From positions 62,001 through 126,000 of the forward strand of contig WNNJ02002532.1 in NCBI GenBank assembly GCA_012934845.2: DNA of 64,000 bases, in the 5' to 3' direction. Position numbers and translations under genes: made by a program. The DNA comes from Pomphorhynchus laevis. Taxonomy: Eukaryota; Acanthocephala; Palaeacanthocephala; Echinorhynchida; Pomphorhynchidae. The notes under the pieces were generated by a model. It worked only from the letters and a program-made list of their open reading frames with translations, did no database searches and was not told the DNA's origin. Shown one piece after another: positions 23,501 through 26,500 of the stretch; position 1 is the stretch's first letter, and each line of letters begins with the position of its first letter.

Positions 23501-26500
23501 ACGACGCGAATGAGTTTAATCCGCTGAAAGAGTAGAAAATGTCGAAAATGCATTAAAGGTTCATTAGTGTTTTCGTGTGTTGATTGAACTTGAATATAAA
23601 CTACAAAACTATTACTAGGAATAGCTGCGATCCAAACAAAGAAGTACATATCCACATATGCAGATAAATTAGATTGATTTAATATAGCATTTGTTTTACG
23701 CTCACGAACGATGCATCAGGGTAAATACTTAACTATTTAAGTATATGTATACTTAAGGGTAAATACTTCCGCAACGTTAGTTTTAAAACTCTCATAAGTT
23801 TTAGACATAAGTTTTAAATACACATATTTTTTATGCAAAATAATCACCAAATTATTAAATTATTATTAAACTAATAACTTAAAATCTGAGAAGCATTTCA
23901 AATATTATGGTTAAGTTGTAAGTATTATATATACTTACAACTCCACTATAACACTTGAAATGCTTCTCGGAAAATGCTTCTTAAAATGTTTAAGCGTGTT
24001 TTAAGGTGCCTATGGATGATTATTAAAGTCACGGTACTGATGAGCTTTGTTAGAGCGAAACGCGTATACCGTTGTGAAGTTTGTCGTCACACATAGGATG
24101 ACTGGACATACGTAGCGACTTTGAATATTGCGAGAATAATTCGGTTCTATTTCGTGATCTGATGAGGATATATAGAATGCTGTCTGGTGTTTATGCCTCA
24201 TCATGATGAAAACATAGTGATTTATTTACGAGTACACCATTGTGTGTCCCAGGGCAGGTGTAACAACAAATTATATTATATATATTTGTACACTTTAAAG
24301 TGTCCCTGTAAAACAGCATTTCTATTAAAAGGAATTTAGTGCCTGATGCATGGTTAAACTTTAATAGTCACTGCCATGCACAGAGCTTATGCTAAATTTC
24401 CTCTGATGATTCAGATTAAGGGTAGTTCTGGTTTTCAAGCTTTAGACATTGTTTAAGCGTGTGTTAAGGTGCCTATGGATGATTATTAAAGTCACGGTAC
24501 TGATGAGCTCCGTTCGAGCGAAACGCGTATACCGTTGTTGAAGTTTGTCGTCACACATAGGATGACTGGGCATACGTAGCGACTTTGAATATTGCGAGAA
24601 TAATTCGGTTCTATTTCTTGATCTGATGAGGATATATAGAATGCTGCCTGGTGTTTATGCCTCATCATGAGGAAAACATAGTGATTTATTTACGAGTACA
24701 CCATTGTGTGTCCCAGGGCAGGTGTAACAACAAATTATATTTTATATATTTGTACACTTTAAAGTGTCCCTGTAAAACAGCATTTCTATTAAAAGGAATT
24801 TAGTGCCTGATGCATGGTTAAACTTTAATAGTCACTGCCATGCACAGAGCTTATGCTAAATTTCCTCTGATGATTCAGATTAAGGGTAGTTCTGGTTTTC
24901 AAGCTTTAGACATTGTTTAAGCGTGTGTTAAGGTGCCTATGGATGATTATTAAAGTCACGGTACTGATGAGCTCCGTTCGAGCGAAACGCGTATACCGTT
25001 GTTGAAGTTTGTCGTCACACATAGGATGACTGGGCATACGTAGCGACTTTGAATATTGCGAGAATAATTCGGTTCTATTTCTTGATCTGATGAGGATATA
25101 TAGAATGCTGCCTGGTGTTTATGCCTCATCATGAGGAAAACATAGTGATTTATTTACGAGTACACCATTGTGTGTCCCAGGGCAGGTGTAACAACAAATT
25201 ATATTTATATATTTGTACACTTTAAAGTGTCCCTGTAAAACAGCATTTCTATTAAAAGGAATTTAGTGCCTGATGCATGGTTAAACTTTAATAGTCACTG
25301 CCATGCACAGTGCTTATGCTAAATTTCCTCTGATGATTCAGATTAAGGGTAGTTCTGGTTTTCAAGCTTTAGACATTGTTTAAGCGTGTGTTAAGGTGCC
25401 TATGGATGATTATTAAAGTCACGGTACTGATGAGCTCCGTTCGAGCGAAACGCGTATACCGTTGTTGAAGTTTGTCGTCACACATGGGATGACTAGGCAT
25501 ACGTAGCGTCTTTGAATATTGCGAGAAACGAGTCCGGTTTCATTTGGCTTGCAGAACGCTCACTGTAATTACGATCACTCGAATTATAATTCCTCATGTA
25601 ATTTATAATTATCTGCTAAATACAACATTATATTTTTATTAAAATATAATGAATATATTTAATAAATATTATATTTTATTTATTATAAAATATAATAAGT
25701 ATATTTTTATTTTTATTTAAAAATAATAAATCGGAAAATAGATTCAAGCAAATAAACAATTTCCTCTAGTGAAACTCTTCAGTCTTTGCAAAGACTGAAG
25801 AGTCTTTTGTTGTGGTCATGTAAGCGTGCGTTGGCACGCACTTGTCATGTAAAAATAAATCATTTTTAAGTATAAAAAGACACGGGCTCTCGTTTTATTG
25901 ACTCAATCAAAACTTAATTTTTTCTTTATTATTTTCTTCAGATTTTGAAAAGTGAGGCCTGGGTATCCTATCCCAAGGAACTTCACGTACCTTACTTTGT
26001 AAATGGCTATTATCAGTTGTAGTTAATACTTAATCTATACATGCGAAAGCCAGAAGTGGGCAAATAAAATGATCTCAGAATTATCTTAAAAAAAGATTTA
26101 TTTTAACGTGGCAAATGCGTGCCAGCGCACGCTTACATGACTACAACAAAACAAAAATGTAAATCATGTGTCGAGAAGGTGTGAACGGAGAAGGTGTTTG
26201 AATGTGATAAAGGAGGGAGCGCGGCGGACGTCGAGAGGGAGTTGATTCCAGGCGAAGGGAGCGGTGAAGAGGAAGGATCGGAGACCGCAGTTGTTGGAGT
26301 AATTGGGAACGTGGAGTAAGATGGTATGACGGGAATGCAGCGATAGCGAGGTGGGGCGAGTGTCGCCTAAGAAAGGAATGTTGATGAACGATGGGGAACC
26401 GACAGCGATGAGACGAAAAGTTACGAGAGCAAAGTTTGATGCGGATGTGGATGGTGGGCAAGGAGAGTTGGGCAAGATATGTGGATGTGTTGTCGAAGCG

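Follow-up and report, generated by a model that had tools for sequence, protein, structure and literature searches.

A dispersed hammerhead repeat family in Pomphorhynchus laevis whose insertion signature resembles that of resident Penelope elements

The window, that is, the whole 64-kb stretch of Pomphorhynchus laevis DNA analyzed here, carries a homeobox gene on its minus strand and, between two exons of this gene, a tandem array on the plus strand. In a protein search, the homeodomain exon was a 100% match to the P. laevis hypothetical protein GJ496_000426. Words from the first 28 residues of this protein mapped to 30176-30096 on the minus strand, and the remainder mapped to the exon at 18019-17546, also on the minus strand. 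Because these exon words flank the array, we place it inside a homeobox intron of about 12 kb, antisense to the gene, as the initial annotation had stated. The features of the locus are listed below, with the predicted cut positions that we presume from the hammerhead consensus.

17543..18019, minus strand: host gene exon 2 (homeodomain, NK1/slouch-like)
23987..25527, plus strand: full extent of the retrozyme-like array, with 3 units and a further 151 nt (Tandem Repeats Finder and self-comparison)
23987..24449, plus strand: unit 1, 463 nt, 97.8% identity to unit 2 (self-comparison)
24031..24072, plus strand: hammerhead 1, predicted cut after 24066
24450..24913, plus strand: unit 2, 464 nt, on which the unit coordinates are based
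24494..24535, plus strand: hammerhead 2, predicted cut after 24529
24674..24685, plus strand: site A (...CATAGTGAT, unit 236) as found in unit 2, the first of the two 3' ends preferred by arrays elsewhere
24727..24738, plus strand: site B in unit 2 (...ACAAATTAT, unit about 289-290), second preferred 3' end elsewhere
24914..25376, plus strand: unit 3, 463 nt, 99.6% identity to unit 2 (self-comparison)
24958..24999, plus strand: hammerhead 3, predicted cut after 24993
25377..25527, plus strand: partial unit 4, 151 nt (unit 1-151), 98.0% identity to unit 2 (self-comparison)
25421..25462, plus strand: hammerhead 4, predicted cut after 25456
30093..30176, minus strand: host gene exon 1, encoding 28 residues of P0001 (the last codon is inferred)

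Tandem Repeats Finder, run on the 64-kb window, recovered the array at 23987-25527 with a period of 464, 3.3 copies and 98% matches, and together with self-comparison it reproduced the tandem units of 463, 464 and 463 nt described previously. The array has a GC content of 38%. No stop-to-stop frame of at least 80 amino acids overlaps it, and it is thus without reverse transcriptase (RT) or endonuclease coding. It starts at unit 1, stops at unit 151 and has a 3' end without TA, which is atypical of the family, and no target-site duplication was seen at its ends (no common word of 6 nt or more). The proposal that the array ends coincide with the outer ends of stem I did not hold up, since the predicted outer stem spans unit 8-128 and most other arrays stop elsewhere. 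Immediately to the left of the array lies a 90-nt palindrome (23884-23974), the source of the sole weak Rfam matches there, all far under the gathering scores.

A descriptor scan of both strands of the window listed four hammerhead cores, starting at 24037, 24500, 24964 and 25427, and no others. All four copies have the type I topology and core (CUGAUGA...GAAA, open stem I), and stem I (ACGGTA/TACCGT) is found on the plus strand in every array copy. The motif had been called canonical, which applies to the type I core and stem I but not to helix III. The latter is minimal and of the dimer type, reading GAA-ACGCGU-A in all four copies, that is, a single A-U pair with a palindromic CGCG tetraloop. 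Axolotl repeats have a helix III of this weak kind and are described as cutting well only as dimers (PMC7229834). Because the newt and axolotl repeats share the single pair and palindromic loop, dimeric hammerhead action is likely in the 463-nt unit. In an energy calculation, a hammerhead-competent dimer with a six-pair helix III (ACGCGU:ACGCGU) reached -27.7 kcal/mol versus -20.0 kcal/mol for the two best monomers. Two altered hexamers gave -21.0 kcal/mol in this calculation, and another, non-hammerhead dimer fold was lower still (-30.7 kcal/mol). From the motif and this precedent, we infer that the unit would have ribozyme activity.

Other approaches to the ribozyme were less informative. 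The covariance-model search suggested in the initial annotation yielded nothing, as Rfam reported no hammerhead at gathering scores in the 64-kb window and none at E<=5 in 23700-25800. The whole unit folds better than shuffled sequences (z -2.81), and the 153-nt ribozyme segment does not rise above them (z 0.11). Among 120 distinct copies, helices I, II and outer I did not covary, and no tested helix performed better than shuffles; double changes occupied 0-2 cells per helix, and the observed pairing was reached by shuffles in 66 to 109 of 300. Since the copies are too alike, covariation is uninformative here. The G.T wobble that was thought to keep a second stem I helix in copy 4 amounts to one single change, and across the 120 copies pairing there is no better than in shuffles. 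Likewise, no selection on the hammerhead core was seen, its conservation being reached by 143 of 433 slid controls.

The unit is widely dispersed. The P. laevis assembly, made from PacBio and Illumina reads, is described as 63% repeats (PMC7310846), and in these 249 Mb the core pattern CTGATGAN{9,17}CGAAACGCGTA has 785 exact matches, compared to 0 for the same pattern written backwards. A genome search with the unit pointed to 1439 candidate places, of which 39 were scored and gave at least 181 matches; viral contigs gave 0 matches. The dispersed copies anticipated for a retrozyme-like tandem family are therefore present, along with the period of 464 and the four cores, and we are highly confident that the arrays form a dispersed hammerhead mobile family. 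Some arrays are long, with 13 full units in L027. Another long family array, at about 3482-18278 of contig C47, has 19 exact cores listed and a CGATA-type stem II loop, and is perhaps a subfamily.

Adjacent units of an array differ at a median of 7.8% of informative sites versus 16.7% between loci (p 1.6e-6), which fits the copying of one template. A circular template would suit many arrays. Several adjacent pairs are nevertheless as different as units from separate loci, so that one circle per array is not general. Such unlike neighbors may stem from multimeric transcripts, from template switching or from nested insertions.

To describe the insertion footprint, we mapped the array borders of 48 loci, grouped into 56 clusters. 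These loci, a non-random choice, comprise 38 from the unit similarity search, 9 of 30 core-pattern loci and the window. The end counts leave out L001-L008 (window or duplicate loci), L051 and L071 (overlaps), L052-L070 (one C47 array) and matches confined to unit 276-318, and borders less than 60 nt from a locus end were set aside in the end statistics. Two unit sites were strongly preferred as 3' ends, accounting for 35 of the 63 uncut 3' ends (8.2% expected, p 6e-22), of which 17 were at unit 230-245 and 18 at unit 284-305. The other 28, the window's own included, were off both sites. The 5' ends were scattered, with only 6/42 at the two preferred sites (p 0.13). Fixed alternative 3' ends combined with ragged 5' ends, a feature of the Penelope-type footprint, are thus found in the unit.

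The junctions themselves mostly read CATAGTGAT or ACAAATTAT followed directly by (AT)n, at unit positions of about 236 and 289, although the border alignments overrun the junction by a few bases of TA repeat. At least 8 nt of TA run were present at 29 of the 35 preferred-site 3' ends versus 2 of the 28 other 3' ends; the values were 10/42 for 5' ends and 1.3% for places drawn at random from the window. Genome-wide, the exact junction strings occurred 97 times (site A) and 79 times (site B), and the reversed controls 0 times. In 19 simple arrays ending at A or B, the TA lay on the 3' side in 15 and on the 5' side in 4. Because of this bias, the (TA)n may be the target or partly a tail made by the enzyme. 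Words shared by the two flanks of 37 simple arrays were 7 nt or shorter, except for one of 9 nt (L075) and one of 16 nt (L045). The latter, at the border of a fragment covering unit 33-116, is a direct repeat around the short fragment and a TA run and looks like a target-site duplication.

Inverted clusters had a single orientation, 12 of the 56 being head-to-head and 0 of the 56 tail-to-tail. Both outer ends lay at preferred sites in 4 of these 12, one in 5 and none in 3; in 3 of the 12, one arm is shorter than 60 nt. Near pairs of exact junctions were head-to-head in 7 cases, had tails facing in 3 and pointed in the same direction in 1. One composite, L040, is longer and lies between (TA)n runs, and its inner junction reads as a palindrome.

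We compared this footprint to that of the Penelopes resident in the same genome. L087 has an open 796-aa Penelope frame that ends in a C-terminal GIY-YIG motif and is flanked by two 169-nt pseudo-LTRs with 100% identity; the RT of this frame is our assignment, based on recognised motifs. In the best 40 of 311 candidates for its 362-nt 3' piece, 44/46 matches reach query 357-362, where the query itself stops. Beyond this piece, 8 of 20 stretches stop at about ...AACAG, 11 go on with roughly 33 nt of additional tail, and one continues into the next copy. In the L108 family (400-nt query), 43/48 matches end at query 241-250 (best 40 of 325 candidates), and in the L110 family (370-nt query) 22/43 end at 334-342 and 18/43 at 364-370 (best 40 of 192 candidates). 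Near pairs within 5 kb, among the best 40 candidates of each of these three GIY-YIG families, were head-to-head in 34 cases (13 for L087, 15 for L108 and 6 for L110), in the same direction in 9 and tail-to-tail in 0. At C3112:56436-62572, Penelope 3' pieces are ordered minus, minus, plus, plus with a spacing of 2535 bp on either side, and are tandem and head-to-head at once.

Read by eye, the control lists showed no pair within 5 kb for a LINE piece (best 40 of 101 candidates) or for the abundant RT family of window 38140-38550 (best 40 of 789). This RT-coding family lies at 37849-40007 on the minus strand, with related pieces at 431-1221, 16552-17204 and 44019-44334. It has 12731 candidate places (150 scored) and intact 908-aa frames with no Pfam domain, and presumably encodes a Penelope-like RT, judging from motifs recognised by eye. 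The RT fragment of the window, used as a protein query, gave no match. We rejected this family as the partner of the unit, since it ends otherwise and, among the 40 matches listed, has no near pair, in particular none of the head-to-head pairs seen in GIY-YIG Penelopes. The L087 family was also rejected as the partner, because its targets differ (TA runs of at least 8 flank 0 of 20 stretches). In the L110 family, there was one exact case of a (TA)n flank.

The insertion signature of the retrozyme family resembles that of the resident Penelopes. The link to Penelope elements, which had been presumed from precedent, therefore gains footprint evidence, namely, preferred 3' ends and head-to-head arrays that are alike in both. 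In published work, Penelopes are a strong candidate for the mover of animal retrozymes, based on shared type I hammerheads, tandem copies and co-occurrence (PMC7229834), and in P. laevis Penelope-like elements are given as about 15% of the transposable element content (PMC7943196). Rotifer Penelopes are described with an optional 31-bp tail, partial tandems and head-to-head copies as the commonest inverted form, and Penelope targets are AT-rich (PMC3846280). In vitro, a Penelope protein cut AT-rich DNA and extended both strands, starting at two adjacent internal sites; hammerhead mutants were still inserted, and the hammerhead was thus dispensable for insertion in that in vitro setting (PMC11167929).

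We thus think it probable that the array goes back to a single insertion, in which Penelope-type machinery put in a non-autonomous retrozyme-type element, with the homeobox intron as what would be a chance landing place. Transcripts of the unit would be cut by dimeric hammerheads, and some of the cut transcripts would circularize. A Penelope-type (GIY-YIG) reverse transcriptase would then start at an internal unit site, about 236 or 290, using as primer the end of a break in AT-rich DNA, which would usually be (TA)n. By passing more than once round the circle, or along a multimer, it would produce tandem units with a ragged 5' end. If both sides of the cut were primed, the two products would join head to head, and priming from both target ends would thus explain the head-to-head arrays. 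We put the chances that the template was circular in most insertions at about even. The complete scheme, in which retrozyme circles would be templates of a Penelope-type RT with two-sided priming in (TA)n, two fixed sites, repeated rounds and head-to-head joining, is possible, and we offer it tentatively. If true, the P. laevis genome would naturally document how ribozyme circles are reverse-transcribed in a rolling, two-sided manner.

The head-to-head arrays could also be due to self-priming on the antisense template instead of priming from both target ends. This was proposed for rotifer Penelopes from palindromes at inverted junctions (PMC3846280), and the palindromic inner junction of L040 would agree with it. 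Both target strands are extended in vitro, however (PMC11167929), and the 4 of 12 clusters with both outer ends at preferred sites are what two independent primings would give, so that we regard self-priming as somewhat unlikely. A different question is whether the mover is a LINE or another reverse transcriptase, with (TA)n as the target or its tail and the likeness to Penelopes coincidental. LINEs dominate the P. laevis genome (PMC7310846), the examined Penelope families do not share the (TA)n flanks of the unit (0/20 for L087, the single exact L110 case), and the position of TA mainly 3' in simple arrays is tail-like. Against this, the head-to-head arrangement with 3' ends outward recurs in three Penelope families and has no counterpart among the best 40 of 101 candidates for the one LINE piece, and the existence of two alternative 3' ends corresponds to the optional tail of Penelopes. 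A mover of this other kind is, in our opinion, improbable.

Insertion by Penelope-type machinery must also be weighed against two readings in which no such separate retroelement exists. The first is an ordinary satellite with a fossil ribozyme, spread at the DNA level by unequal crossing-over and excision circles, with no RNA step. The long local arrays (L027 and C47), a core not better conserved than the rest of the unit and helices without covariation would all suit a satellite; crossing-over, in contrast, is not expected to scatter hundreds of short arrays that are ragged at the 5' end and stop preferentially at two 3' sites, nor to give outward 3' ends in head-to-head clusters, and we consider this very unlikely. 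We find it hardly credible, too, that the array represents what remains of a Penelope itself (its pseudo-LTRs). Resident Penelopes do have hammerhead-like motifs (CTGAAGA...GAAATATT) in their 3' parts, at L108:161 and L109:660, and a review proposes that retrozymes came from the reduction of Penelopes (PMC11722881). However, the unit has no sequence in common with four Penelope pieces beyond chance (best E 0.04, AT-rich), and the fetched arrays are complete 463-nt units in succession without coding sequence.

The family is of a known kind. Like the metazoan non-LTR retrozymes described by Cervera and de la Pena (2020, PMC7229834), it has a type I hammerhead, short low-GC tandem repeats, many dispersed copies, no LTRs and Penelopes in the same genome. 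At 463 nt, the unit is slightly longer than the 170-400-nt RNAs and 150-450-bp repeats reported there. Despite the invertebrate host, it has the weak helix III known from amphibians. Most invertebrate retrozymes are said to cleave efficiently (PMC7229834). The newt and axolotl repeats (HHR_Amex1) have the same helix III, with one pair and a palindromic tetraloop, but are 330 nt long, belong to another host phylum and have conserved loop 1-loop 2 contacts (PMC7229834); our comparison concerns helix III. Plant LTR retrozymes are likewise non-coding, with repeated hammerheads and a circular RNA as the proposed template. They differ by type III hammerheads, LTRs with PBS and PPT, 4-bp duplications and 600-800-nt circles (PMC7229834), while the P. 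laevis unit is type I and LTRs, PBS/PPT, 4-bp duplications and such circles were not seen.

The unit resembles Penelope-like elements as described in PMC3846280 and PMC11167929 in having two alternative 3' ends and a ragged 5' end, in forming arrays both in tandem and head to head, in its AT-rich targets and in the hammerhead motif. Unlike the resident Penelopes, which code for RT and GIY-YIG, it codes for neither, has no sequence in common with those tested and lies mostly beside (TA)n. Our literature search found no paper pairing acanthocephala with a hammerhead ribozyme and, in titles and abstract openings, no report of such retrozyme insertion junctions. Within the literature covered, the family thus adds an acanthocephalan to the hosts of dimer-type hammerhead repeats, in a phylum without a listed hammerhead, and its new part is the insertion footprint. 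For the enzyme that moves animal retrozymes, the insertion junctions described here are a testable footprint. This footprint, which consists of head-to-head arrays and a pair of preferred 3' ends, is common in kind to the resident Penelopes and fits the proposal in PMC7229834.

Finally, the window contains two more hammerhead-like cores (CTGATGAGTCATTGTGATGACGAAACGGCATTCGT), which are absent from the descriptor scan listing and whose stem I does not close by eye. They are located at 61387 (minus strand) and 61513 (plus strand), head to head in a near-perfect inverted repeat at 61331-61571.
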